51,937 bases of DNA from a virus. Below are positions 4,722 through 31,939 of the stretch, piece after piece (positions within the stretch are counted from its first letter, which is position 1; each line of letters opens with the position of its first letter). The position numbers and the translations under genes were made by a program. The notes under the pieces are model-generated. The model was not told the DNA's origin, ran no database searches, and was given only the letters and a program-made list of their open reading frames with translations. The DNA lies in IMG/VR virus record IMGVR_UViG_3300042922_000712, positions 1-51,937 of that record; one strand, written 5' to 3'.

Positions 4722-5549
4722 TTATTCCCATCGCTTTAGCATTATTTCTCTATCGTACTCTTCTTGATTATTATTCATCGCCTTTAAAGCATTTAATTTC
4801 CATCCTTCAGACATTCCCAAATCATCAGCGTGGAAATTCATGTATACCCAATTTGATTTTGCTAAATGTTTGTCATACATTTCAATATCAAATTTATCTG
4901 CTTTTCTTCTTATAGTTTCCAAAGCAGCATTGTATTCTTTTCCAACTGTGCTAGTAATAACAATATGATCTTCAGTATTAGAAGGATCTACATTTGCATC
5001 AGTATATTCCATATGTTCAGCATCATCATACCAATATAAATCTTTTTCATTTCCAGGATTTAATATTAGCCCTGGAAATCCATGGTTTCGTATATAAGAT
5101 GGAAGAGTATTATGCAATTCTGCTAAGCGAATATTGAAATGATTTAAATTATTTGCATTTATAAAAAATGCTCGTAATTGTCTTCCCCATAATAAATATA
5201 ATAACATTGTTGTTGTTTTATGAGATACCTGTCGACATCCAAGCCAATATATATTATACCCACTATTAAGAGCATATATTACAGCCATTGTAGCTGGAGT
5301 CAATTCAAATTTTTCCAAAACGTTACCATTAGGTATTCTTACAACTTCTCTAAAATAATACCATATATTATTCATAGACTCGTGTATAATTCTAGCTTTA
5401 TCACTATCTGTTAGAAATGGGTCATATGGATCTGGAAGTTTTTCTTCGCTCAATTGTTTTAGCATAAATAAATTATTTTTTATGCCCGACATTTTTAAGA
5501 ATTTGCTCATTTCCAAAAATGACTTATTTTTAGTATCAGTATTATACAT
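4722..5549 (-). CDS. Terminase large subunit-like ATPase domain, truncated and with altered Walker A
   Basis: The 275-residue product resembles the N-terminal motor of large phage terminases. The segment IYWLGCRQVSHKTTTM (near residue 105) sits where a terminase has its RQxGKT-type Walker A. LYWYDDAEHMEY near residue 170 looks like Walker B, and IVITSTVGK near residue 200 like the coupling motif. The end, EEYDREIMLKRWE, matches the linker that normally precedes the nuclease domain. No nuclease domain follows, and Walker A lacks the usual GKT, so it may be a degenerate paralogue or regulatory subunit. Function is inferred and moderately uncertain. Confidence 0.5.
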   Translation of the reverse strand: MYNTDTKNKSFLEMSKFLKMSGIKNNLFMLKQLSEEKLPDPYDPFLTDSDKARIIHESMNNIWYYFREVVRIPNGNVLEKFELTPATMAVIYALNSGYNIYWLGCRQVSHKTTTMLLYLLWGRQLRAFFINANNLNHFNIRLAELHNTLPSYIRNHGFPGLILNPGNEKDLYWYDDAEHMEYTDANVDPSNTEDHIVITSTVGKEYNAALETIRRKADKFDIEMYDKHLAKSNWVYMNFHADDLGMSEGWKLNALKAMNNNQEEYDREIMLKRWE

Positions 5550-5564
5550 TATTTTCCCACCTTT

Positions 5565-5750
5565 TTAAATTTCAAATTTTTTCCCACAATTCCAGCAAGT
5601 ATATTCGTAATCATGATTTGGATATCCGTCTCCACCAGAGCGCTTCTTATAATCGTGAATATCATGATACTCTTTACTAAACCAACAAACAAAACTTGTT
5701 GGTAACCACGGATCAAAAAGTATCGCAACTATAACAAATACATATTTCAT
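5565..5750 (-). CDS. Small membrane protein with a Cys pair
   Basis: A 61-residue protein begins MKYVFVIVAILFDPWL, a hydrophobic segment that may be an anchor or signal. It ends CWNCGKKFEI, a half zinc-ribbon-like motif. Its ATG overlaps the TGA of the NADAR gene (ATGA), so translation is coupled. No family is recognised. Confidence 0.6.
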   Translation of the reverse strand: MKYVFVIVAILFDPWLPTSFVCWFSKEYHDIHDYKKRSGGDGYPNHDYEYTCWNCGKKFEI

Positions 5751-6190
5751 ATTTTCCCTCCATTCATATTAATACGTATTTCTTCTCTAACTTTCATGAG
5801 AATTTTTCCAAGTAAATTTTTGCCATTTCCATTAACTGTACCCCATGTCTTATCTCCCCAATCATTTTCTTCTATAAGTTCCATTTCTCCAGTTAGAAGT
5901 AATCTGTTGCGAAGATCTATATTCTGAGTAAATTTTGCCATAACTACTTTATACATAACTTCTTCTTTTATATTCTCCCAATCTCTACAAAGCTCAACTT
6001 TCCTGCCAGCTTTCTTTGCTTCAGAAGGTTTTAGCCAGCAGAAGAATTCTCTAAGTTTAATATTCTCTGGCTTATGGCTTTGAAATGCGGCTTCATTATT
6101 TTGAAATACAAGATCATCAATTATAACTCTTCTGGGAAAGAAATTGCTTAAAAAGAAATATCTACCTCTAAATCCTGCTATTTTGTCCAT
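5747..6190 (-). CDS. NADAR (YbiA-like) family ADP-ribose glycosidase
   Basis: This 147-residue protein has the NADAR/YbiA pattern: FLSNFFPRRV near residue 13, VFQNNEAAFQSHK near 28, SEAKKAGRKV near 55, and WGTVNGNGKNLLGKIL near 115. The family acts on N-glycosidic bonds of riboflavin intermediates or ADP-ribose. Some NADAR proteins remove ADP-ribose from guanine in DNA and work as antitoxins to DarT1-type toxins. Here it lies three genes from a TARG1-like macro domain, so reversal of host ADP-ribosylation is a plausible role. The substrate is inferred. Confidence 0.8.
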   Translation of the reverse strand: MDKIAGFRGRYFFLSNFFPRRVIIDDLVFQNNEAAFQSHKPENIKLREFFCWLKPSEAKKAGRKVELCRDWENIKEEVMYKVVMAKFTQNIDLRNRLLLTGEMELIEENDWGDKTWGTVNGNGKNLLGKILMKVREEIRINMNGGKI

Positions 6191-6445
6191 TTATAATTCC
6201 CCTTCCACTAAATTCACTATGCACAATTTTATATTTGTGACGCATATTCTTGCTTTTTCTTTCCACCCACGAGGAATGGTAAAATATCGTTTAGCATTCA
6301 TAACCTTTATTTCAGTTTTATAATCATGCGCGTTTCTAAGTACTTCTCTAGATTCAAATAGTATTTTTACATAGCTCCATAATTTTTTAAAAAAGCCTTC
6401 AGCTTCTAAATATAAATAATTATAAGATCTATATCTTTTATACAT
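6191..6445 (-). CDS. Small basic protein, unknown
   Basis: An 84-residue, Tyr/Lys/Arg-rich protein (MYKRYRSYNYLYLEAEGFF) lies directly between the NADAR and DUF488-like genes with no gap. It is predicted mixed helix and strand, with no recognised domain. Its position inside the ADP-ribose cluster suggests a related job, but the sequence does not show it. Confidence 0.6.
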   Translation of the reverse strand: MYKRYRSYNYLYLEAEGFFKKLWSYVKILFESREVLRNAHDYKTEIKVMNAKRYFTIPRGWKEKARICVTNIKLCIVNLVEGEL

Positions 6446-6447
6446 AA

Positions 6448-6795
6448 TTAAGCCCCTCTTTTTATTTTTCTTTCTCCCATATAAATGGCTCCAAGATTTA
6501 CAAATAGATTAGCCAATAAATACCTATGACAAAAACTATTTGTTTTACAAAAACAAACAAAGGTTATTTCATCCATATTAAGAATTTTATTCCATTCCCA
6601 TCTATGGTGCATATGCGATATTCTCATTTTTTCTAAATATATTTTAGTATATTCTTCATCTGAGATTATACCACTTTTATGATTTTTTACTAATTCCCAA
6701 GTTGGAGCAAATGCAGCATTTACATTTGTCCCAACCGTGATATCGAATTTATCATTTCCATTATATTTATATTGAGCTGTCCAGATTTTTACCAT
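6448..6795 (-). CDS. DUF488-like protein
   Basis: The 115-residue protein contains FVCFCKTNSFCHRYLLANLF near residue 80. This matches the conserved C-terminal motif (hydrophobic strand, Cys, then FCHR.L.A) of the DUF488 family, whose function is unknown. The N-terminus IWTAQYKYN and the middle segment AFAPTWELVKNHKSG also fit. The start overlaps the stop of the macro-domain gene. DUF488 proteins often sit beside nucleotide or ADP-ribose enzymes, which agrees with this neighbourhood. Confidence 0.6.
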   Translation of the reverse strand: MVKIWTAQYKYNGNDKFDITVGTNVNAAFAPTWELVKNHKSGIISDEEYTKIYLEKMRISHMHHRWEWNKILNMDEITFVCFCKTNSFCHRYLLANLFVNLGAIYMGERKIKRGA

Positions 6796-7211
6796 TATCC
6801 TGTCCTAACTAATATATTTATACTAGATGAACTGAATATATCTTTGATCATTGCACGAACTTTAGACCATGTAAGTCTATCTAAACCGCATGCTATTCTT
6901 GGCATGGCTAAATATTCTATATTATAAAGATTACATAATTCCCTCATTTTAATTAAAGTAGACTCTAATGTATAATATGTAGGCTTTGAGCATTTAATAG
7001 GTTTAGTAATTAAATTAAAAACCCTTCCTACTAAAACAGCATCTCCAATTTGACCATTGGACCTGATTAAAATATGACGAAGCCGAAATCTTCTTTCAAA
7101 TTCAACAGCTATGCCTTTTCCAAGAGCAAAATCTTTGGAAACGCAATGAGCCAAATAATATTTATCAATGTCTATATCAAATACACTTCCAGACTCTTCT
7201 GTATAAGTCAT
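6795..7211 (-). CDS. TARG1/OARD1-like macro domain ADP-ribosyl hydrolase
   Basis: The 138-residue macro domain closely follows the TARG1 pattern: LAHCVSKDFALGKGIAVEF at residues 20-38, FNLITKPIKCSKPTY at 65-79, and LAMPRIACGLDRLTW at 101-115. In human TARG1 the catalytic lysine lies in LITK and the aspartate in CGLD. Their counterparts here are K70 and D111, both present. TARG1-type domains remove ADP-ribose from acidic residues and from thymine in DNA, as in DarG antitoxins. It heads a compact operon ending in NADAR, which suggests an anti-ADP-ribosylation function. Confidence 0.85.
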   Translation of the reverse strand: MTYTEESGSVFDIDIDKYYLAHCVSKDFALGKGIAVEFERRFRLRHILIRSNGQIGDAVLVGRVFNLITKPIKCSKPTYYTLESTLIKMRELCNLYNIEYLAMPRIACGLDRLTWSKVRAMIKDIFSSSSINILVRTG

Positions 7212-7308: not shown

Positions 7309-7539
7309 TTATAATTTTAGATTTTGTAATATAAATACAAAATTATCCTTAAATGTGCTCAAATCTTTTTTTAATGAATTATTAGCTTCTGAACACTTAA
7401 CGACAATACCTAGTATAACTCTAGATAATATATTAAGTGTAGATAATAAACTTTCTGGATCTTTTTCTATTTGGTTCGCACCCTCTATTGTAACCTTCTT
7501 AGTTTCTAAATCAATGCTTATTACAAGTTTATTTTCCAT
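7309..7539 (-). CDS. Small protein at the end of radical SAM operon 1
   Basis: The start chosen is the ATG at 7537-7539 (MENKLVISIDLETKKVTIEG) behind GGGGGAG. An upstream in-frame GTG lies within that site. The 76-residue product has an N-terminal beta-hairpin and a long helix (LSTLNILSRVILGIVVKCSE). It begins 16 bases after the radical SAM stop, so it belongs to that transcript. No family is recognised. Confidence 0.6.
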   Translation of the reverse strand: MENKLVISIDLETKKVTIEGANQIEKDPESLLSTLNILSRVILGIVVKCSEANNSLKKDLSTFKDNFVFILQNLKL

Positions 7540-7554
7540 TATTTTCTCCCCCAC

Positions 7555-8679
7555 CTATATCCATTCTATAGTAAACTTGATATTATCTATAATTTTATCT
7601 AAATAAACTTTAGTATTACTTAAATGCGATAATGCAACTTCGCAAGTTTTATATGCTTTATCGAAAGTTTCAGCTTCTTCATTGTATAATTGACCTATAC
7701 ATTTAACACAATTGTTTTCCAATATACAATTATCGCATTTAGAATCTTTAAATTTATTTAATATAGCAATAATCTTTTCCATATCAAATCCAATATCAAC
7801 ATTTCCCACAATTAAATTTTTTGTTTTATGGATAAACATATGACATGGATATATATTTCCATGAGTATCTAGACACGCCATATGAGATCCAGATCCACAT
7901 TGATAATCGTCTGTTTTTTTTCCTATAGATTTTTCTAATACATCTATATTTTTACAGATAGATTGAGCGTCGATACAAAATTCTTTATTACTGCCAATCA
8001 AATAATCAAATACTTCATAATATGATTTTTTTAATAGTTCCACATCATCTTTAGTCCACATGTCTTTAAAAGCAACACCGCAAGTAATTCTAATATTCTT
8101 TAATTCTTCTACTTGAAATTTTATAATATCTGGAATACTTGTTATATTATTATGGGCTATAGTAGTTTTTACAGTTTCTAAACTATATCGCTCTCTTGCC
8201 CATTCATAATTTGGCATAATATCTTTGAAAGATCCGCAGTCATTTGATTTATAAATTCTATTTTTATCATGTTCGCTTTCCGGTCCATCTATACTAAATC
8301 CTATAGAAAAAAAAGGATATTTATTTAAAAAGTCTTTTACTCTTTTTGTTCCTACTAATGTTCCATTTGTGCTAGCATGCATATGAAATTTACCACACTG
8401 CCCCCAATGATGGTCATATTTTTTTACTTTATTAAAAAAAGATTCCACTGCGCTTTCCAATAAATTCATTTCTATAAGCGGTTCTCCGCCTATAAAGTTT
8501 ATAACTATACTTTCCCTATCTTTTGTAAATGGAGAGGTGAACAATACGTCGAAATATTTATCAATATTTTCTTTAGTATTTATTACTTCCTTTTCCCCAT
8601 CAACGTAACAATAGCTACATTTAAGATTACATCTATTGCTAGTGTAAACCATTGCAGTAAACGGATATGTAAGATTCAT
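7555..8679 (-). CDS. Radical SAM/SPASM enzyme, putative peptide or protein maturase
   Basis: The 374-residue protein has the radical SAM motif CNLKCSYC (C17, C21, C24) and the GGEP motif in FIGGEPLIE near residue 64. A SPASM-type C-terminal region has conserved cysteines: CLDTHGNIYPC near residue 270, then CDNC, CVKC and a last Cys near 350. SPASM enzymes usually modify ribosomally made peptides or proteins. It is a close paralogue of the gene at 9295 (both have TSNRCNLKC and YCYVDGE) and is the third gene after the CX3 cysteine-array protein. Its start overlaps the stop of the gene at 8681. The substrate is inferred. Confidence 0.85.
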   Translation of the reverse strand: MNLTYPFTAMVYTSNRCNLKCSYCYVDGEKEVINTKENIDKYFDVLFTSPFTKDRESIVINFIGGEPLIEMNLLESAVESFFNKVKKYDHHWGQCGKFHMHASTNGTLVGTKRVKDFLNKYPFFSIGFSIDGPESEHDKNRIYKSNDCGSFKDIMPNYEWARERYSLETVKTTIAHNNITSIPDIIKFQVEELKNIRITCGVAFKDMWTKDDVELLKKSYYEVFDYLIGSNKEFCIDAQSICKNIDVLEKSIGKKTDDYQCGSGSHMACLDTHGNIYPCHMFIHKTKNLIVGNVDIGFDMEKIIAILNKFKDSKCDNCILENNCVKCIGQLYNEEAETFDKAYKTCEVALSHLSNTKVYLDKIIDNIKFTIEWI

Positions 8680-8680
8680 A

Positions 8681-9280
8681 TCATACCTTCCTTTTCTTCA
8701 AATAATTTTCCACCAATACTTTTATAGATGTTTGTCTCTTTAAAAATTTATTGATATACTCATCAGAGCTCTTATTATATTGCAGGCTTATAAGTAAATT
8801 ATCTTTATTGGTTTTTACAACATCATTAATTTTTTCTCGCTCTGGAGTGTCCAAACTATCTGTAATATATAATAATAATACCTCTACTGTTTTAGACAAA
8901 TCAGCCACTACACTTTCCAATCCTCCAGAGGTAGAACTTATTTTAGTATTTAGAGCAAATAGAGAATTAGAATCTCTATATATAAATTTTCCTTCCACAT
9001 AGTCAAGATACATATCACTCATATTCTCTTTAAAAAAAGTTAAATCGTACTCTGATATATTTATAAATGATTTTTCTTCATTACAATTTAAATTACCATG
9101 AAAAAAACTATTTGCAGCTATCTCTTCCCCATTTTTAATGTGGGTGAAATCAATTTTAGATCCTTCATAGATTAGATCTTTTGGAAATTTGTCAAAAATA
9201 AATTTATCTAATAAAGCTATATCTAACCCATTCATATTAATATAATTTAATACTTCTTTTATTTGATAAAATACATACAT
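8681..9280 (-). CDS. Partner protein between two radical SAM genes, unknown
   Basis: This 199-residue, mostly helical protein sits between the paralogous radical SAM genes. Its stop overlaps the ATG of the downstream one, and the upstream one ends 14 bases before it. No cysteine array, signal peptide or named domain is visible. The C-terminus is a basic helix ending in KKRKV. By position it may be an accessory or substrate-recognition factor for the maturases, but nothing in the sequence proves it. Confidence 0.65.
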   Translation of the reverse strand: MYVFYQIKEVLNYINMNGLDIALLDKFIFDKFPKDLIYEGSKIDFTHIKNGEEIAANSFFHGNLNCNEEKSFINISEYDLTFFKENMSDMYLDYVEGKFIYRDSNSLFALNTKISSTSGGLESVVADLSKTVEVLLLYITDSLDTPEREKINDVVKTNKDNLLISLQYNKSSDEYINKFLKRQTSIKVLVENYLKKRKV

Positions 9281-9294
9281 TATTTTCCACCTCT

Positions 9295-10410
9295 TTATAT
9301 AAATTTTATTGTATCTTTTATATTTTCTTTTAATTTATTAATAAAAATATGAGTTAATAATATTCCTATTTTTGTCAAATTGCAATTATTATATACTTTA
9401 TCAAAAGTATCATTTTCTGGATTGTATATTTGAGCAAAACATTTTCTGCAAATACTATTAAATCTACATTTATTACATTTAGCCGATTTTATTTTTTCTA
9501 AATTTGCATTAATTTTATTTATATCCAATCCAGTATCAACATGACCTATAGCAAATTTATTAATATTATTACTTGCTAATATCTGGCATGGATATATATC
9601 ACCGCTTGGATGTATGCATATTGTATATCTTGCAAATGAGCAGTTAAATAATTTTTTATAATTATTTTTTTTATCATAGTCATAATAATTTAAAGGTTTA
9701 AATAAATTTTTTATCGCAATTGTAAACTCTTTATTATCCATTATTAACTCATCTATGATTTTGCTCACTTGCATCTTGACACTTCTAGCATCGTCTTTAG
9801 AAAAATAAGCACTGCCATTTACATTAACTCCTATTGCTCTGGTTTTTAAAGTATTAAGCTGAAATGATAATATATCATATAGATCATCTACATTATTATT
9901 AGATAGAGTTGAATCAACTCTATCTATATTATATTTTTCTTGTATCCATTCAAAGTTAGAAATTACGTCATTAAATGAACCACAATTATTTTTATACATC
10001 CTATTTTTATCATGAATATTTTCTGGTCCGTCTAGGCTAAACCCAATAAAAAATGGATATTTATTTAAAAAATCTTTAACTCTTTTAGTACTAACTAAAG
10101 TGCCATTAGTGCTAGCCATAAAGCTAAAATTATTTAACCAATGATGGTTATACTGTTTAGCTTTATGAAAAAATTGTTCAATTGTATATTCTATTAGATC
10201 TAATTCGACGAATGGCTCCCCTCCAATAAAATTTAATTTAATTTCGTCCCTATCTTTAGTATATGGAGAAGTAAATAATATGTCTAAATATTTATCAATA
10301 TTTTCTTTAGTATTTACTACTTCCCTTTCTCCATCGACGTAACAGTAGTTACATTTAAGATTGCACCTATTACTGGTATAAATATAGCTATTTAATTTAT
10401 CATATTTCAT
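9295..10410 (-). CDS. Radical SAM/SPASM enzyme coupled to the cysteine-array protein
   Basis: The start is the ATG at 10408-10410 (MKYDKLNSYIYTSN), which overlaps the TGA of the cysteine-array gene as ATGA. The 371-residue protein has CNLKCNYC (C16, C20, C23), FIGGEPFVE, and a SPASM-like C-terminus with HPSGDIYPC, CNKC, CRKC and a terminal NNCNLTK. It is highly similar to the gene at 7555. Tight coupling to a CX3-repeat protein suggests it forms thioether or other crosslinks in that tail. This is inference from context. The reaction type cannot be read from the sequence. Confidence 0.85.
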   Translation of the reverse strand: MKYDKLNSYIYTSNRCNLKCNYCYVDGEREVVNTKENIDKYLDILFTSPYTKDRDEIKLNFIGGEPFVELDLIEYTIEQFFHKAKQYNHHWLNNFSFMASTNGTLVSTKRVKDFLNKYPFFIGFSLDGPENIHDKNRMYKNNCGSFNDVISNFEWIQEKYNIDRVDSTLSNNNVDDLYDILSFQLNTLKTRAIGVNVNGSAYFSKDDARSVKMQVSKIIDELIMDNKEFTIAIKNLFKPLNYYDYDKKNNYKKLFNCSFARYTICIHPSGDIYPCQILASNNINKFAIGHVDTGLDINKINANLEKIKSAKCNKCRFNSICRKCFAQIYNPENDTFDKVYNNCNLTKIGILLTHIFINKLKENIKDTIKFI

Positions 10411-10793
10411 TGCGATCCACATCCAGCACAACTCGTAGTGCAGCTTCCGCTACAATGAGTATAACATCCAGTTTGACACGTACCAGTACAATTTCCAGAA
10501 CAAGGATCTCTATAATTTACTATAGTAGTATTCAGTGTACCAATTTTACTATAAATATCTGTATCAGTGTTAATTAAATCTGTTATTTTTGCCCATAATG
10601 CGTTATCCCCATTTATTCTAGCTTGAGCTTCTGCCGTATCACCAGCTATTCTAGCTTGAGCTTCTGCCGTATCACCAGCTATTCTATCTTCTATTTCTGC
10701 ATATAATTCTATTTTCGTAGCTTTAGAATTTATTAAATTTTGCAAAGATGGAGCCAATTCATCATATGTAATTTTATCTTCTGCGAGAAACAT
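10407..10793 (-). CDS. Fibre-like protein with C-terminal CX3 cysteine array, probable radical SAM substrate
   Basis: The protein has 128 residues. Residues 5-20 carry the recurring EDKITYDELAPSLQNL motif of the phage's small fibre-like proteins. Residues 38-62 contain two exact 11-residue repeats (IAGDTAEAQAR) and a diverged third copy, probably a trimeric coil. The tail has eight cysteines at 98, 102, 106, 110, 114, 118, 122 and 125: six CX3 steps and one CX2. This resembles CXXX-repeat targets of radical SAM maturases. The stop codon overlaps the start of such an enzyme. I infer that the tail is crosslinked and displayed on the virion. Disulfides or metal binding are alternatives. Confidence 0.8.
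   Translation of the reverse strand: MFLAEDKITYDELAPSLQNLINSKATKIELYAEIEDRIAGDTAEAQARIAGDTAEAQARINGDNALWAKITDLINTDTDIYSKIGTLNTTIVNYRDPCSGNCTGTCQTGCYTHCSGSCTTSCAGCGSQ
10615..10680 (-). repeat. Two perfect 33-bp direct repeats in the cysteine-array gene
   Basis: Positions 10615-10647 and 10648-10680 are identical and encode the 11-residue coil repeat. Exact identity at DNA level means recent duplication or conversion. A third, diverged copy lies on either side. Confidence 0.9.
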
Positions 10794-13013: not shown

Positions 13014-13319
13014 CTAATTATCCTCTATCCATATATTCCCACCAACATCACTTGTAGGAATATTTTTAGCTACATTGGCGTTATTATCCACCCAACCATT
13101 ATTATACCGCATTACTAAATTGGTAGAAGTATTTACCCATATCTCTTTATTATTGATTGGAGCTGTTGGAGCTGTTGGTCCTACAGTGAGTCTTATTCCA
13201 TTCATTAGCTTAATAATAACATTTAAGTCTTCGTGACTTGCTTTACCATTTAATAATTCTTGTAACGATGGGGCAAGCTCATTATAAGTTATTTTATCTT
13301 CTGGATTAAAATTGCTCAT
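13014..13319 (-). CDS. Small ELAPSLQ-motif fibre-like protein
   Basis: This 101-residue protein starts MSNFNPEDKITYNELAPSLQ and has a helix after the motif. It then carries a small beta domain (NNKEIWVNTSTNLVMRYNNG), similar to the C-terminal part of the small proteins at 31376 and 31661. It has a good AAGGAGG site. It is the first gene of a structural transcript leading to the Gly-rich protein and the cysteine-array protein. The motif probably docks these small proteins to a common fibre base. That is inference. Confidence 0.65.
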   Translation of the reverse strand: MSNFNPEDKITYNELAPSLQELLNGKASHEDLNVIIKLMNGIRLTVGPTAPTAPINNKEIWVNTSTNLVMRYNNGWVDNNANVAKNIPTSDVGGNIWIEDN

Positions 13320-21314: not shown

Positions 21315-22481
21315 TTATTTATATGGCAACTCCGGCATGCTATTTTCTACGTTCCAGTCTTCATTATAGTGATATACTCGCTTCACCTTTTCGATATCTA
21401 CGACATCGGCTTTATTATATTCTAAAAATATCTCTCTTTCTATATTTCTTAAAACACACGTTTGATATAACTTATTCTGCATATTGCCAGTTCTAAATAG
21501 ATTAGTCGCAGGACATTCGAAGCAATGTAAACTACTACATTGAGTATTATAACACATAGGAACCTCTTTATATTGATCTATGAAGGATTTTACTTTATCT
21601 CTATAAAATCCTTCTTCTATACTACCCATATAGAGTTCACAGCCATTAAATACTGCATCTTTACTAAAGAAACCACATGGTGCAATTTTACCATCCATTT
21701 CAATATATAAACTCCTACCAAGATGACGACAAGCTATAGATCTGAGTCTGTCTTTTTCTTTATCTAGACAATACTCAGTAAAATATAAAGCATCCCAGTT
21801 GGAGTAGGTAAAATTATATTCTAATTTTAGAGTTGCTATTTTTTCTAATTGAGCTGTAGCTTTTTCAATAAATTTTAAATCTCTATATTCTTCGCAATCT
21901 GTCAAGTAGTAATATTCTAGTTTATTGCATCCATTATCTAATGCATACTTAAAACTATCATAAAGCGTATCTACTGTATTTGGAGTTAATGCTATTCTAA
22001 TAAGTATATCATCTTTATATCTAGACCTTCCAATGATAGAGAGTTTATTATTAAAAAATAAATTATCGTACTTTTTATTTTTTGGCTTCCTAGAATTAGA
22101 TGAAGAAAATATGCCATCCCAGCTATATTTGCAGCCCCATGATCTAAGTACACCTTCATCCATTAATTCAATTAAACCTTCCATATTAGTACCATTGCTA
22201 ATAGTAGTAAAATTTATTTTAATATCTTTCATACGCTCTAATTTAGATAGCTTTTTATATGCATATCTAATATCATCACAAAATAAACTTGGCTCTCCTC
22301 CAGTAACCTTAAATTCTAAGTCTTCATCTAAAGGAAGCTTAGATAATAAATTAATCATATCATCATACTTATCAAATTTATTATCAATAGTTTTTGTATC
22401 ATACTTTTGAAAACAATATTCGCAGTCAAGATTGCAATATTGTGCTATCTTAAAAGTTACTGCTGTTATATTTGTAAACAT
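21315..22481 (-). CDS. Orphan radical SAM/SPASM-like enzyme
   Basis: The 388-residue protein has CNLDCEYC (C16, C20, C23) and an intact FKVTGGEPSLF near residue 62. Its C-terminal cysteine-rich region includes IEMDGKIAPCGFF and a dense cluster (MCYNTQCSSLHCFECP) before a last TCVLRNIERE. It is a clear paralogue of the protein at 25933, sharing SWDGIF, SRYKDDILIR or SKYKDDILIR, and the C-terminal cluster. Unlike the other radical SAM genes it has no cysteine-array protein next to it. The substrate is unknown. Confidence 0.8.
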   Translation of the reverse strand: MFTNITAVTFKIAQYCNLDCEYCFQKYDTKTIDNKFDKYDDMINLLSKLPLDEDLEFKVTGGEPSLFCDDIRYAYKKLSKLERMKDIKINFTTISNGTNMEGLIELMDEGVLRSWGCKYSWDGIFSSSNSRKPKNKKYDNLFFNNKLSIIGRSRYKDDILIRIALTPNTVDTLYDSFKYALDNGCNKLEYYYLTDCEEYRDLKFIEKATAQLEKIATLKLEYNFTYSNWDALYFTEYCLDKEKDRLRSIACRHLGRSLYIEMDGKIAPCGFFSKDAVFNGCELYMGSIEEGFYRDKVKSFIDQYKEVPMCYNTQCSSLHCFECPATNLFRTGNMQNKLYQTCVLRNIEREIFLEYNKADVVDIEKVKRVYHYNEDWNVENSMPELPYK

Positions 22482-25932: not shown

Positions 25933-26982
25933 TCACTCTCCACAATATAATTTTCTTTCAATATTACGAATTTTACATGGCTGAGATGCTTTGTACTCGA
26001 ATGTATCTCCAGCTCTATATGGTATTAATCTAGCACATTCGATACAATGTAAATTTCCACAATTAACATGATTACACTGATCGCAATTTATACAATTATT
26101 TATATTAATACTTTCTATTTTAGAATGGTCATACTGCTGAGAGATATCATCAAAATCAATGCTTGGCGGTTTATACTTATATCCATTACTATATGATCCA
26201 CACGGTAGTATCTTACCATATACGTCTATTTCTATAGAATTATATAATGATCTACACCATAGACGTTTTTTGGTTGTATTAGTGCTGTAGAATTCTGGCA
26301 TTGAGTTTATATTGAATATATTAATTCCATTACCATTATATTTATAAAGAGAATTTAATTCTTTTTCGAATATATTTAGAAAAATAGGATCTCTATATTC
26401 ATCGTTATCTATAAGAAAATAATACTCCCAATTAGAACATCCGCAATCTATAAGATATTCTATAGATTCCTTTTGATGAGATAATAATGTAGAGGTTAAA
26501 GCAGACCTAATTAGAATATCATCTTTATATTTAGATTTTCCTATCGATTCAATTGCTTTATTAAATAAAATATCATTATATTTTAAAGATTTAGATTCTC
26601 GTATATTCGAGCCAAATATTCCATCCCAACTCATGCTTGTATATTTTGGATCTAATATTCCTCTGTCTAATAAATCTAATATAGCTTCTATATTAGACCC
26701 ATTTGTATACAGCCCGAATTTTACATTAGTATCTTTATATCGTTCTATCTTTTTAAGTTTACTATAAGCCGTTTCTATAAGATTTGGAAACAAACTTAGT
26801 TCTCCGCTAGATACATTTATAAGTACATCTTGAGCTAATGGTGCATCTATTAAAAATTTCAGTAGATCGTCAAACCTACTGAATCTATCGTTTGACTTTC
26901 TAGCATCTTCAGTCAAAAAACAATACTTGCAAGATAAATTGCAAGTATGTAATAAATGTAGATTTATCCAATTTATGCTCAT
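25933..26982 (-). CDS. Radical SAM/SPASM-like enzyme with altered GGE motif
   Basis: The 349-residue protein has CNLSCKYC (C14, C18, C21). Where its paralogue at 21315 has VTGGEPSLF it has VSSGELSLF, so the first glycine and the proline of the GGEP motif are changed while the glutamate stays. The C-terminal cysteine cluster is strong: VYGKILPCGSY, NCINCDQCNHVNCGNLHC and a final PCKIRNIERK. The start overlaps the upstream stop as TAATG. It may have reduced or altered SAM binding. The substrate is unknown. Confidence 0.8.
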   Translation of the reverse strand: MSINWINLHLLHTCNLSCKYCFLTEDARKSNDRFSRFDDLLKFLIDAPLAQDVLINVSSGELSLFPNLIETAYSKLKKIERYKDTNVKFGLYTNGSNIEAILDLLDRGILDPKYTSMSWDGIFGSNIRESKSLKYNDILFNKAIESIGKSKYKDDILIRSALTSTLLSHQKESIEYLIDCGCSNWEYYFLIDNDEYRDPIFLNIFEKELNSLYKYNGNGINIFNINSMPEFYSTNTTKKRLWCRSLYNSIEIDVYGKILPCGSYSNGYKYKPPSIDFDDISQQYDHSKIESININNCINCDQCNHVNCGNLHCIECARLIPYRAGDTFEYKASQPCKIRNIERKLYCGE

Positions 26983-28013
26983 TAAATATCACCCAATTTT
27001 TTATAATAATTATTCAGATATGATTTGTACGATATGATAATATTCTGCAATCTATATTTATCAGCTGCACTTAAATCATTTAAAAACTTCTGTATAGTAT
27101 CAGCATATATCTTAACTACTTTACAGGTACTTTGCAAATAATATGCTTGCCAATCGTCACCATATTGATTATATCTTTCGTATCTACATCCACCATCGCA
27201 TAGCCATGAATATTTACATTTTATACAATCTTCATGCACACATGATTCTTGTACAGTTTGTAAATCAAATTCTTTTCTTTCTTGACTTAGAGCAGTACAT
27301 AAACTTTCATTACCATACGGATCTATAGTTATATATTTCCCAATATCACAACTAGCGAAAGTTTTATCCATGTTTATATAGGCAATTATTTTATTTAGAT
27401 GATCTGAGTACATCTTGTCCAAGTCAAATGTGAGTGGCAATTGTTTGGATAACTCATTATAAAAGTCTTGGGTGTATAGATCTCTATGAGCTATAACAAA
27501 TTGCCCACTTACTCCATATTTTTTTAACTCTTTAAATTTTTTATGAATATCATACATATGGTGGACGTTATTATTACTAATAACTGTTTTTATATCGAAC
27601 TCCAACCCACATGATATAGCGTACTCTATATTTTTATAAACTTCAAATGATATAGTATCACCCACAATATTAACTCTATTAGAATTGAATCCATCCCATG
27701 ATAATTGTATCTCATTTAATGGATATTCTTTATTAAACTCTATAAATTCTTTAAAATTTATAGATGTTGAAGTTACCACTTGAAATTTAATTTTTCTATA
27801 ATATTTTTTTACTATCTCTTGCATAAGATCTAATCTTACTAAAGGCTCACCTCCAAAGAATAAGATTCTTTGTGGCTTATATTTCTTTATTTTTGCATCT
27901 ATCATTTCTATAGACATACTACTAGGATTAGCCCTGTTGCGAATATAACAATATTCGCAACGATTTGGGCAAGATTCTGTCAGGAGTAAATATAATTCAG
28001 TATAATTGATCAT
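26982..28013 (-). CDS. Radical SAM/SPASM enzyme
   Basis: The start is the ATG at 28011-28013 (MINYTELYLLLTESC), overlapping the TGA of the HNH gene as ATGA. An ATG two codons earlier lies too close to the GGGAG site. The 343-residue protein has CPNRCEYC (C15, C19, C22) and an intact FFGGEPLVRL near residue 54. A SPASM region includes DPYGNESLC near residue 240, then CIKC, CDGGC and a final STCKVVK. It is the middle radical SAM gene of operon 2 and probably acts with its neighbours. The substrate is inferred to be the cysteine-rich protein at 29009. Confidence 0.85.
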   Translation of the reverse strand: MINYTELYLLLTESCPNRCEYCYIRNRANPSSMSIEMIDAKIKKYKPQRILFFGGEPLVRLDLMQEIVKKYYRKIKFQVVTSTSINFKEFIEFNKEYPLNEIQLSWDGFNSNRVNIVGDTISFEVYKNIEYAISCGLEFDIKTVISNNNVHHMYDIHKKFKELKKYGVSGQFVIAHRDLYTQDFYNELSKQLPLTFDLDKMYSDHLNKIIAYINMDKTFASCDIGKYITIDPYGNESLCTALSQERKEFDLQTVQESCVHEDCIKCKYSWLCDGGCRYERYNQYGDDWQAYYLQSTCKVVKIYADTIQKFLNDLSAADKYRLQNIIISYKSYLNNYYKKLGDI

Positions 28014-28882
28014 GACCATTCTCCCTTTAGGCTAGCTCTAATAGTATAAATTGTTCTATATAAGGAATCTAATCTATCTGTACTAGCAATATATTCTCTC
28101 CCATTCATAATAGCAAATATTTCTTTATCAGTTTTTTCTTGATAAATATATTTTTTGATTGTTTCTTTTTCTTCTTTAGAATAAGCATGTTTTTTACTAC
28201 TTCTATCAAAATTATACTGGCTAGAGATATGTCTCCAAGTATATCCACCACGAATGTCTCTAAGAAGAGTATGATTAGAATTATTTAGCTCCATACCAAA
28301 CCAGTTCATGATCTCAGTATTTGATTTACCTTTCTGAAACTCTTCACACAAATACCTAACGAAATTCTCATTAACAATTGGACGTTTATTTACAATGAAA
28401 GTATTTGTGCCATTATAAAATTCCCTAGCATGTTGATTATTAGCAGCAACTGTAACCCACTCAAGATTATTAGCAAAATTATTACGCTTATTTGTATCGA
28501 TATGATTAACTATTCTATTTGCGAAATCAATTGGCGGATTACAGAATTGATATGCAACAAGACGATGCACTAGAAACTTCTTACCACCAGCAACAGTTTG
28601 TAAAGTAACAGCCTGATAGTCACTATCAGCATCAGTATCATAATTAGTTAATATTACACGAGTAGTTGCGTTAAATATTATACCTCTAGTATTAATTAAA
28701 TACATACCAGGCTTAACCCCAGGGTATGTAATATATTGAAGCGCTTCGAAGAACTGCACAGGAACTAAAGAATACTGTCTTTCGATACCATCGCTATTGT
28801 TGTACTGTGAAGCAGGAATATTATTCTTATTCCTGCTATCAAATGGTACTCTCTCTACTATTGTCATCAATCCATTGCCCAT
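28010..28882 (-). CDS. HNH homing-type endonuclease
   Basis: The 290-residue protein contains FLVHRLVAYQFCNPP near residue 103, followed by VNHIDTNKRNNFANNLEWVT near 123. This is the classic HNH signature (His, then NH.D..K.NN...NLEWVT), preceded by a NUMOD4-like segment. The C-terminus has a helix-turn-helix-like region (SNTEIMNWFG and a second copy NREYIAST). Such enzymes are mobile genes that cut DNA at or near their own insertion site. It sits between the cysteine-rich gene and the radical SAM genes and interrupts that operon. It is not inside a visible intron. Confidence 0.85.
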   Translation of the reverse strand: MGNGLMTIVERVPFDSRNKNNIPASQYNNSDGIERQYSLVPVQFFEALQYITYPGVKPGMYLINTRGIIFNATTRVILTNYDTDADSDYQAVTLQTVAGGKKFLVHRLVAYQFCNPPIDFANRIVNHIDTNKRNNFANNLEWVTVAANNQHAREFYNGTNTFIVNKRPIVNENFVRYLCEEFQKGKSNTEIMNWFGMELNNSNHTLLRDIRGGYTWRHISSQYNFDRSSKKHAYSKEEKETIKKYIYQEKTDKEIFAIMNGREYIASTDRLDSLYRTIYTIRASLKGEWS

Positions 28883-29008: not shown

Positions 29009-29992
29009 TTATGACCATCCCCCACAATTTTGATTATGGCAAGTTCCACCATAGCAGCTTTGACATGATAACATGCAAGGTTTCTGACATGATACTTGGC
29101 ACGTTCTGCTACAACTGCCATTTGGATTCCACCAATCCTTATATGAATCTAGTGCTTGAGAAATGAGTCTTAAATTTGTAGCTATTGCTATAAATGTACT
29201 TGCATATATAATATCGCCTTTATTTACAGACGGTACAGCGTCTCCAGAAATAGATCCAGGAACTACTACGACTGCCTGTCTTTGAGTGCTACTGCATACC
29301 CAAACATATCCAAGATCTTCAGAAGAGCTTTCGCTTTTCCACCCATATTGTTTAACTCTATTAGGGCAACTTATAGATATATTACCACATAGCCTTTCAG
29401 AAAGACTAGTATCTGGAGTTTCTATTTCTGGACCTTCTTTAAATATTTGCTTTTTTGTTACGGTATAATAAGTTGGGTTTCCGTTTGCATCTAATACAGG
29501 AATAGGATTTCTAAATCCTGGAATCATAACAGCGTTTCCGCTAGCATCTACAATACCAACTCCAGTTACAGGATTTACCTTTTGCTGATCCAAGACTACA
29601 ACTTCTGCCTCTACTTTTATTATAGTATCTTGATATGGATAAGTGCATGTAATAATAGTCAGTTGACTAGAAGCTCCTCCGCACGTTCTTACCATTTCAT
29701 TGGTATATTTAATTACAGTATTTACATATGATGCATATATAGGAACGTCTACGCCTATAGACGCTCTTACTGTACTCATTTCATTTTCTTTAGCCGGATC
29801 TATAATACCGCTAAGTTGTTGTAATGGAGTACCATAGTTATCAGGATTGTTCATAATACGGTTTATAGAATCTCTTTCATTCATAGTTACCAATAATACA
29901 GAAAGTAAATATGATGTATCGGTTGCTAAAATTGCGTCTCCTCTAGCAACATCTTTAGGTTCTGTATATACTACGACTCCTCTATTAGCCAT
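29009..29992 (-). CDS. Virion-like protein with C-terminal eight-cysteine array, probable radical SAM substrate
   Basis: The 327-residue protein has an all-beta-looking body (PTVNKG-type loops, YVWVCSSTQRQAVVVV) without a known enzyme fold. It ends in a Gly/Cys-rich tail with cysteines at 294, 298, 302, 306, 310, 313, 318 and 323: four CX3 steps, then CX2, CX4, CX4. The first radical SAM gene of the operon overlaps it by eight bases. Number and spacing of cysteines parallel the protein at 10407, although the N-termini differ. I infer radical SAM crosslinking of the tail. Disulfides are unlikely in the reducing cytoplasm but possible on the virion. Confidence 0.75.
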   Translation of the reverse strand: MANRGVVVYTEPKDVARGDAILATDTSYLLSVLLVTMNERDSINRIMNNPDNYGTPLQQLSGIIDPAKENEMSTVRASIGVDVPIYASYVNTVIKYTNEMVRTCGGASSQLTIITCTYPYQDTIIKVEAEVVVLDQQKVNPVTGVGIVDASGNAVMIPGFRNPIPVLDANGNPTYYTVTKKQIFKEGPEIETPDTSLSERLCGNISISCPNRVKQYGWKSESSSEDLGYVWVCSSTQRQAVVVVPGSISGDAVPSVNKGDIIYASTFIAIATNLRLISQALDSYKDWWNPNGSCSRTCQVSCQKPCMLSCQSCYGGTCHNQNCGGWS

Positions 29993-31364
29993 TAATATTC
30001 TCCTTTCTGTCTAACTTTTTAGTCATCTCATCTAAGCTAACACCTTTCTTAGATAATTGATACGCTAAAATTATAGAAATCTTCGAATCTATATACTGTT
30101 TAAATGTAGGAAGAATGTTCTTTTTCCCAAGATTATCAACCATTTCCTTTAAATGCATAATTCTTGTAGTAAGAGTAAGACTATCATCTAGATCTGTCTC
30201 GCTATACAAAATATCTACATATTGCTTTAGTTTAAGATTTTCTTTTAAAAGATTAATCATCCTGTTTCTAATATTAGAAGCATTCATTAATTTTTCTCTG
30301 TATTTCAGAACTGCTTTAACTAAGGCAATGCTTGTTTTACAATGCCCAGATGATGGCTCATCATATATTCCAGTTTCTCGCATGTTTTGAGTTGGGCATC
30401 CGCCTTTACAAATAGATTTCCCAATACAATTATTACATTCTTCTTTTGGATATGATGCATGTATATCTTCTTTATTTAATTTAGTTTCATCCACTCCAGT
30501 ATAAAGATTCCCAATATATAAATCATCTTTGAATTTCTTTTCTGAAGTTGGTCCTTGATGGCATGGGTAGATATCTCCATTGGTATCGAATGCGCACCAT
30601 CTGTTAGAATAAATAGGACACATGATTGGATCGTCTATTTCTGGCTCTAAAACATTAGTTAAAATCTCATCTGTATTCTTAATAGAAATATTACGCTTAA
30701 TTGTATCATCATTTAACAAATCAACATAATACTCCATTAGCTGTTTATAATAATATTCTAATCTCATAGTATGTACAAAATCCCACTCAACGTCTGTTAC
30801 TGGCATTGGGCAGATATTATCAATACCCATATCGATAAGCATTTTAATACCATTTAATGCGTATTCTACATCTTCTGGAAGTATCGTCATTCTAGCTTCT
30901 ACAAATATAGCGAGCTTTCTATCTATAAGCTTTTTAAGATTAGAGTGCACAATATCAAAACTATCGCATCTATTTTTATCATGCACATATTTAATCCCAT
31001 CAATACTTACTAGCATCATAATAGAATTATCATCTATATATTCGAGCATTTCATCTGTAAGAATGGTAAGATTGGTAGTAATTCCATATCTCACTTTATA
31101 TTTCTTTTCATTACAATGATCTATTAATGCTTTGATAGTTTTCCAATTTAATAATGGCTCCCCTCCAAAAATATTAATAGTGAAATCGCCTATAGATTTA
31201 TCTACTTCCCTATATGATGCATCTATAATATCTATTGCAGTTTGAGGACTCATCATTTGCTCATTCTTATCATGCTCAAAACAATAAGAGCAATTAAGAT
31301 TACAATTATTTGTCACATTAATTGTAATAGAATCGCAGTTATATACCTCTTTGAATTGTTTCAT
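29985..31364 (-). CDS. Radical SAM/SPASM enzyme coupled to the eight-cysteine protein
   Basis: The 459-residue protein is the longest radical SAM gene here. It has CNLNCSYC (C21, C25, C28), INIFGGEPLLNW near residue 64, and a full SPASM region: CAFDTNGDIYPCHQGP near 250, then CNNC, CKGGCP and GHCKTS. Its layout is like SPASM peptide maturases and anaerobic sulfatase-maturating enzymes. A C-terminal helical extension (residues 365-459) is unique within the window. The stop overlaps the start of the cysteine-rich gene by eight bases, which marks the likely enzyme-substrate pair. Confidence 0.88.
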   Translation of the reverse strand: MKQFKEVYNCDSITINVTNNCNLNCSYCFEHDKNEQMMSPQTAIDIIDASYREVDKSIGDFTINIFGGEPLLNWKTIKALIDHCNEKKYKVRYGITTNLTILTDEMLEYIDDNSIMMLVSIDGIKYVHDKNRCDSFDIVHSNLKKLIDRKLAIFVEARMTILPEDVEYALNGIKMLIDMGIDNICPMPVTDVEWDFVHTMRLEYYYKQLMEYYVDLLNDDTIKRNISIKNTDEILTNVLEPEIDDPIMCPIYSNRWCAFDTNGDIYPCHQGPTSEKKFKDDLYIGNLYTGVDETKLNKEDIHASYPKEECNNCIGKSICKGGCPTQNMRETGIYDEPSSGHCKTSIALVKAVLKYREKLMNASNIRNRMINLLKENLKLKQYVDILYSETDLDDSLTLTTRIMHLKEMVDNLGKKNILPTFKQYIDSKISIILAYQLSKKGVSLDEMTKKLDRKENING

Positions 31365-31375
31365 CCTATTTCCCC

Positions 31376-31648
31376 CTATTTAAATCTAATAGCATTTCCG
31401 TTCCATGTTCCATTGTGATAGGACTCTAATATATTAGTTTGAGAATTTAGATTTAGATTCTTTTTCTCTGTAACAGCAGTTGGTCTATTTTGACCTATAG
31501 TAACAGTAATATCATTAACTCTACTATTTATATCTATAGCTTTTTCATTTATAATATTAAATGCATCTTTAGAAGATGAATTGTCTAGCATATTTTGTAA
31601 ACTAGGAGCCAATTCATAATAAGACAAATTAATTTTATCAGTAGTCAT
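31376..31648 (-). CDS. Small ELAPSLQ-motif fibre-like protein
   Basis: The 90-residue protein begins MTTDKINLSYYELAPSLQ, followed by a helix and a short beta domain (LNLNSQTNILESYHNGTW) that resembles the ends of the proteins at 31661 and 13014. The start follows AGGAGGTATT. It lies 12 bases upstream of the radical SAM start, in the same operon. It is probably a virion component that shares a docking motif with the cysteine-array protein at 10407. Confidence 0.65.
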   Translation of the reverse strand: MTTDKINLSYYELAPSLQNMLDNSSSKDAFNIINEKAIDINSRVNDITVTIGQNRPTAVTEKKNLNLNSQTNILESYHNGTWNGNAIRFK

Positions 31649-31660
31649 TTCTAATACCTC

Positions 31661-31939
31661 CTATGAATAAACTCCACCTGTTGGTTTCCATGCATTGTGA
31701 TATGAATATACTGTATTATTAGCAGTAGATACCAAAATCTCTCTATCGTTTTGTGGATTTGCTACATTAGCCCCACTATTAGCTATACTAATTCTATTAG
31801 ATCCTAACTGAGCTGTTAATTTAGTTAGCATTGCATTACATGTATTATACTGCTCTACTGTGGCTTTGTCTCTAATTAGTTGCTGTAAACTAGGAGCCAA
31901 CTCATTAAAAGTGACTTTATTTTCTAAATTAAATGCCAT
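31661..31939 (-). CDS. Small ELAPSLQ-motif fibre-like protein
   Basis: The 92-residue protein begins MAFNLENKVTFNELAPSLQ, has a helix to about residue 50 and ends in a small beta region (REILVSTANNTVYSYHNAW). It has a good AAAGGAGGT site and is the first gene of operon 2. Both this and the next gene resemble the protein at 13014, so the same two-part fibre element precedes both radical SAM loci. Confidence 0.65.
   Translation of the reverse strand: MAFNLENKVTFNELAPSLQQLIRDKATVEQYNTCNAMLTKLTAQLGSNRISIANSGANVANPQNDREILVSTANNTVYSYHNAWKPTGGVYS

Follow-up and report, generated by a model that had tools for sequence, protein, structure and literature searches.

As read from its sequence, one phage couples two proteins tipped with CX3 cysteine arrays to radical SAM enzymes of two lineages, since at two separate loci the gene of the array protein overlaps a radical SAM gene. 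Both loci lie in an IMG/VR virus record (IMGVR_UViG_3300042922_000712), whose 51,937 nucleotides are referred to here as the window. We lean towards the reading that the coupled enzymes would form thioether crosslinks in the cysteine tip of a tail protein.

The large terminase encoded in the window is closest to those of the Bacillus jumbo phages BpSp, Goe21, AR9 and PBS1 (28-38% identity), which points to a PBS1/AR9-like jumbo phage as the probable source of this fragment; its host would be a Firmicute. The gene for this terminase (4722-5549, minus strand) encodes only 275 residues, perhaps because the gene is split and this is a single part of it. At 5747-7211 on the minus strand, a NADAR-domain gene (Pfam, 92 bits), a DUF488-family gene (39 bits) and a gene for a 138-residue protein stand in a row; the last has no Pfam match and is, by eye, presumably macro-domain-like, and together these genes might possibly serve an NAD/ADP-ribose-related counter-defence.

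The first locus comprises the following features, with proteins named by their lower coordinate; a further ELAPSLQ protein of the window is listed last:

10407-10793, minus strand: target 1, a 128-residue fibre-like protein with an ELAPSLQ N-terminus, a helical repeat and a C-terminal CX3 array
10419-10502, minus strand: the CX3 cysteine array of target 1 (residues 98-125, eight Cys)
9295-10410, minus strand: radical SAM enzyme 9295 of putative SPASM type, whose start codon overlaps the target 1 stop (ATGA)
8681-9280, minus strand: 199-residue partner protein, matching no family
7555-8679, minus strand: radical SAM paralogue 7555 of putative SPASM type, 48% identical to 9295
7309-7554, minus strand: 81-residue protein directly after 7555, placed in the cluster by its position only
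13014-13319, minus strand: short protein with the ELAPSLQ N-terminus and without a Cys array

A first-pass annotation of this DNA had described target 1, its ATGA overlap with a radical SAM gene, and a partner gene and paralogous radical SAM gene downstream, and all of these were borne out when the sequence was checked again. The protein begins with MFLAEDKITYDELAPSLQNLINSKA, and the ELAPSLQ start is common to the window proteins 13014, 31376 and 31661. An exact 11-residue repeat (ARIAGDTAEAQ, twice) follows, and the cysteines occupy positions 98, 102, 106, 110, 114, 118, 122 and 125, spaced by three residues six times and by two once. When the residues of target 1 were shuffled 200,000 times, the longest cysteine run with such gaps was six and never eight. 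The array (residues 98-125) contains neither Asp nor Glu. A single-sequence model of low confidence (mean pLDDT 68) gave one long helix (residues 10-95) and an unstructured cysteine tail, and such a predicted arrangement fits a substrate tail.

The stop of target 1 and the start of 9295 overlap in GGATCGCAATGAAATATG, and the order of the locus is target 1, radical SAM 9295, the 199-residue protein, radical SAM 7555 and the 81-residue protein. The two enzymes are 48% identical over about 365 aligned residues. For the partner protein 8681, a small profile of known accessory proteins had placed it first among the ORFs of the window (E 0.11), while a deeper profile with 123 members did not pick it (E 0.53), and its kinship to such proteins was rejected on that account. 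The TIGR04116 profile matched neither 8681 nor 7309.

At the second locus the gene order is reversed, the enzyme preceding its target; the other radical SAM genes of the window are listed last:

29009-29992, minus strand: target 2, a 327-residue protein with a C-terminal Cys array
29024-29113, minus strand: the Cys array of target 2 (residues 294-323, eight Cys, gaps 3, 3, 3, 3, 2, 4 and 4)
29985-31364, minus strand: radical SAM/SPASM enzyme, whose stop overlaps the target 2 start by 8 bases
31376-31939, minus strand: two short ELAPSLQ-type proteins (31376-31648 and 31661-31939) directly upstream of the locus
21315-22481, minus strand: radical SAM protein for which no array target is visible
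25933-28019, minus strand: two adjacent radical SAM genes (25933-26982 and 26982-28019) with no visible array target

The cysteines of target 2 are residues 294, 298, 302, 306, 310, 313, 318 and 323. For three of the six radical SAM enzymes of the window (21315, 25933 and 26982), no array target is visible in the window; an HNH endonuclease gene (28010-28882, minus strand) lies directly upstream of 26982 and 25933. Neither target had relatives among the phage records searched, and no relatives of 9295, 7555 or 29009 were found among IMG/VR contigs.

Both 9295 and 7555 belong to the radical SAM superfamily by their matches to Pfam PF04055 (40.3 and 46.2 bits, cut-off 29.5) and by the CX3CX2C motif that they carry. 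The SPASM part of the earlier label holds less firmly: both carry the seven-cysteine SPASM pattern, yet against the Pfam SPASM model 9295 scores 18.0 with a cut-off of 21.5, and 7555 has no match. The search with the TIGRFAM CXXX-repeat models that had been proposed did give matches, all of them under the cut-off: with TIGR04115, 9295, 7555 and 29985 score 124.8, 140 and 96 (cut-off 350), and target 1 scores 14.5 with TIGR04117 (cut-off 50). For NF047865 (PapB), the corresponding enzyme scores are 162, 174 and 197, and this is the best family match of all six window enzymes (55-197, cut-off 340); with TIGR03974 (CteB/SCIFF), window enzymes score far below the cut-off of 425. By sequence, the nearest solved structure for 9295 and 29985 is 5WGG (E 9e-24 and 7e-26), which we take to be CteB, and the relatives of known structure include anaerobic sulfatase maturases as well. 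In a tree made by a quick method, with long branches and hence rough placements, 9295 and 7555 pair together outside the TIGR04115 clade and 29985 is placed elsewhere again. By these sequence scores, the window enzymes are divergent relatives of the TIGR04115 and PapB families and not members of them.

In the reading that we favour, target 1 would be a tail- or fibre-associated protein whose N-terminus is an anchor common to other proteins of the same phage, whose middle forms a long helical shaft and whose C-terminus exposes the CX3 array. Enzyme 9295, translated from the overlapping start codon, presumably acts on this array after synthesis together with its paralogue 7555, and at the second locus a different enzyme would make the same modification. 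Ranthipeptide chemistry links a Cys thioether to a non-alpha carbon, with a loss of 2 Da per link. By analogy, since the window enzymes are related to PapB and CteB, the most likely products would be crosslinks in which Cys sulfur is joined, as a thioether, to the side-chain carbon of a residue close by; with no acidic residues to play the part that they have in PapA, the array would offer Thr, Asn, Ser or other residues as acceptors, which is a guess. Such crosslinking may yield a compact tip that stays closed under reducing conditions, serving presumably stability or receptor binding.

The same observations can be read differently, namely that the array is held by disulfides or binds metal or an Fe-S cluster, and that the enzymes carry out some other modification (for example by formylglycine formation or epimerisation) or assist in metal loading. 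The sulfatase maturases among the solved relatives and the missing acidic acceptors known for PapB agree with this, whereas the top family scores go to thioether-type maturases and the regular CX3 spacing matches that of known CXXX targets, and we regard it as unlikely.

Whether array and enzyme belong together was examined across IMG/VR, where CX3 arrays were sought by DNA pattern alone, returning at least 225 stretches. Translations of simple sequence and frames opposite other genes made up most of the matches; they were dropped by an entropy rule, set after the hits had been seen, that defines a real array. Radical SAM genes were detected with a profile built only from the six window enzymes. 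Among the matches listed for these 225 stretches, such a gene is present in 5/6 stretches with a real array versus 0/219 of the others (Fisher p=1.3e-9), with the reservation that the stretches vary in length and that an enzyme missing from a short one means little. A real array is encoded at 5715-6815 of L065, a 292-kb IMG/VR contig, in a protein with 45 Cys; no radical SAM gene lies in the stretch around it, and three are clustered elsewhere on this contig, near 200 kb. The reverse search started from an enzyme motif derived from four array-linked enzymes and is therefore not independent; among distinct viral enzymes selected by this motif with both flanks covered, 11 of 13 have an array within 4 kb, and in genome contigs an array is present at 82 of the 118 loci with such an enzyme. 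Taken as sequence associations, these counts support the pairing of enzyme and target across phages well, and the arrangement is not unique to the phage of the window. The coupling of a CX3 target to radical SAM/SPASM maturase-like enzymes, claimed in the first-pass annotation, is upheld, and the pairing recurs in phages beside tail genes. Its occurrence there in many unrelated phages suggests that some phages may chemically modify their own tail parts.

The array proteins occur in distinct settings. In Bacteroidales chromosomes, TIGR04115-family enzymes face CXXX proteins whose arrays mostly follow a Tat-like RREFFK signal, which is the CXXX-repeat system of NCBIfam. Five tested enzymes from viral or phage-labelled records (L176, L245, L097, L124 and L276) pass the TIGR04115 cut-off; that of L124 adjoins a protein with a Tat-like signal, and this record may be chromosomal rather than viral. 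A different N-domain of about 105 residues precedes the array in Firmicute prophages and viral contigs; an AlphaFold model of the Firmicute-prophage domain was weak, with a mean pLDDT of 66, and led to no confident match. Wherever neighbours could be named in these prophages and contigs, the array gene belongs to the tail module. L260 has, in this order, Baseplate_J, Tail_P2_I, Phage_tail_fib, the array, two small genes, radical SAM and amidase, and L322, a contig of Anaerobacterium chartisolvens, encodes an array protein with the length and start of the L260 one; Baseplate_J genes lie near the L256 and L269 arrays and a Collar-domain gene near that of L241.

These settings bear on the proposal that the CX3 proteins mature into modified peptides that are secreted, such as RiPP-type bacteriocins or morons carried by the phage, and are not parts of the virion. 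The same enzyme family indeed faces exported Tat-signal CXXX proteins in Bacteroidales chromosomes, but the phage array proteins carry a coil or the 105-residue N-domain in place of a Tat-like signal and sit in tail modules, and ORF lists inspected by eye only contain no exporter or leader peptidase gene beside the arrays, which leaves this proposal improbable, somewhat more so than the disulfide or metal reading.

Other gene clusters resemble these in part. In Achromobacter phage JWF (L403, 3793-7314), a tail-fibre-like protein carries CNCDCNCNCSC directly before a Hint (autoprocessing) domain and is followed by a 240-residue protein and a radical SAM gene, which we read as a C-x-C variant of the array-enzyme theme. 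An IMG/VR stretch (L094, 2620-4594) encodes a 29-Cys protein with C-x-C and C-x3-C repeats; a radical SAM gene sharing 46% identity with the JWF one comes immediately after it, and the N-terminus of the 29-Cys protein, MTLPSTGAI, is one that we take to be known from marine phage fibres. Burkholderia phage S13 (L404, 23596-34274) has four radical SAM and two 2OG-Fe(II) oxygenase genes after baseplate/virion genes; no Cys array was found in this stretch despite the four annotated radical SAM genes, and the cluster is possibly another modification cluster.

Cultured jumbo phages tie the arrays to virion genes. In SPN3US, three array-type ORFs (21, 20 and 4 Cys) have a virion structural gene on one side and a radical SAM pair on the other, and a 295-residue protein is encoded between the arrays and the enzymes. 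The next gene upstream of the structural one spans 145536-150719, and as the amber mutation at 146047 assigned to gene 168 (PMC5105663) falls inside it, it encodes gp168, a protein found in virions and a baseplate/fibre candidate (PMC5694885). The gene order is kept in the Erwinia phages EaH2, Kwan, EarlPhillipIV and SNUABM_11 and in Cronobacter CR5, and when one array protein is aligned across these phages and SPN3US, six in all, the Cys columns are 94% identical versus 73% for the other array columns. Some array ORFs of these SPN3US-type phages are unannotated: those at 4097-5123 of L233 (4097-4486, 4500-4901 and 4920-5123) are absent from the SPN3US record, and in Erwinia phage Kwan (L405, 4422-4847) a gene is annotated on the strand opposite a Cys-array ORF. 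On this genomic evidence, a virion (tail) location of the CX3 proteins is moderately supported. That the radical SAM genes are metabolic helpers standing beside Cys-rich proteins by chance is most improbable, for although the 11-12 radical SAM genes of the Campylobacter phages CP220/CPt10 were read as host-metabolism boosters (PMC2853527) and a target is visible for only three of the six window enzymes, the array-enzyme association (p=1e-9, for stretches among the matches listed) and the gene overlaps at two separate loci with two enzyme lineages speak against chance.

In favour of thioether crosslinking of a tail tip, we count the overlaps at both loci, the array-enzyme association in IMG/VR, enzymes nearest to the peptide thioether maturases (PapB, CXXX and CteB), arrays in tail modules, array cysteines more conserved than the intervening residues and the shared ELAPSLQ N-terminus; against it stand enzymes that score under the cut-offs of TIGR04115 and PapB and group apart from the TIGR04115 clade, an array without Asp or Glu, the lack of relatives in the searches described, three window radical SAM genes without a visible target and the post hoc entropy rule. 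The first-pass proposal that the phage crosslinks the tip of a virion protein by radical chemistry is accordingly sustained in its target-enzyme pairing, recurrent beside tail genes, whereas presence in the virion and the crosslink are what we infer.

In a wider frame, radical SAM tailoring of virion appendages might be a strategy general among phages and of more than one origin, with several enzyme lineages recruited for Cys-tipped tail proteins, a proposition that could equally well hold or fail. If true, many phage radical SAM genes called metabolic would be virion maturases, which would give a concrete function to genes that have puzzled annotators since 2010. Radical chemistry would then join proteolysis and covalent capsid crosslinks, as in HK97, among the ways of building a virion, and enzyme-made, non-reducible fibre tips would be of interest to protein engineers. 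The idea is directly testable on isolated phages such as SPN3US.

Several known phages resemble that of the window in carrying several radical SAM genes, some among structural genes: CP220, Aeromonas phage 332-Vera with eight in a structural cluster (PMC12390700), Burkholderia phage S13 (PMC11898562) and the SPN3US/Erwinia jumbo phages; such genes are also recorded for phage RP12 (PMC5468394). Cys arrays are present in the SPN3US, Erwinia and Cronobacter phages, and none was seen in the CP220 stretch examined. Unlike in the present analysis, the published accounts of CP220, 332-Vera and S13 draw no link from these genes to Cys-array proteins. In the open-access literature searched, phage radical SAM genes are listed, called unusual or taken as metabolic, and no link to tail proteins was found there, which is weak evidence of absence, as subscription papers were mostly outside its scope; the earlier remark that no phage system of this kind had been described agrees with this literature.

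CXXX-repeat peptides are recognised targets of radical SAM maturases in bacterial genomes. As in the window, a radical SAM/SPASM enzyme (TIGR04115, with TIGR04116 as accessory) adjoins a CX3-array protein (TIGR04117) in that system; the window differs in the low scores of its enzymes (125 and 140 of 350) and target (14.5 of 50), in having no recognised TIGR04116 homologue and in a target that is fibre-like and lacks the Tat-like signal of the chromosomal ones. CteB (TIGR03974, 5WGG) offers the nearest solved structure for 9295 and 29985, but 9295 begins almost at the radical SAM core, aligning from CteB residue 101, and the SCIFF targets of CteB are short peptides. PapB (NF047865), whose family is the best, thioether-type match of the window enzymes, forms thioethers in the ranthipeptide PapA, a CX3-spaced substrate with Asp/Glu acceptors in CX3D/E motifs (PMC9413430). 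The window array shares this CX3 spacing, whereas it contains no Asp or Glu and is borne by a 128-residue fibre-like protein.
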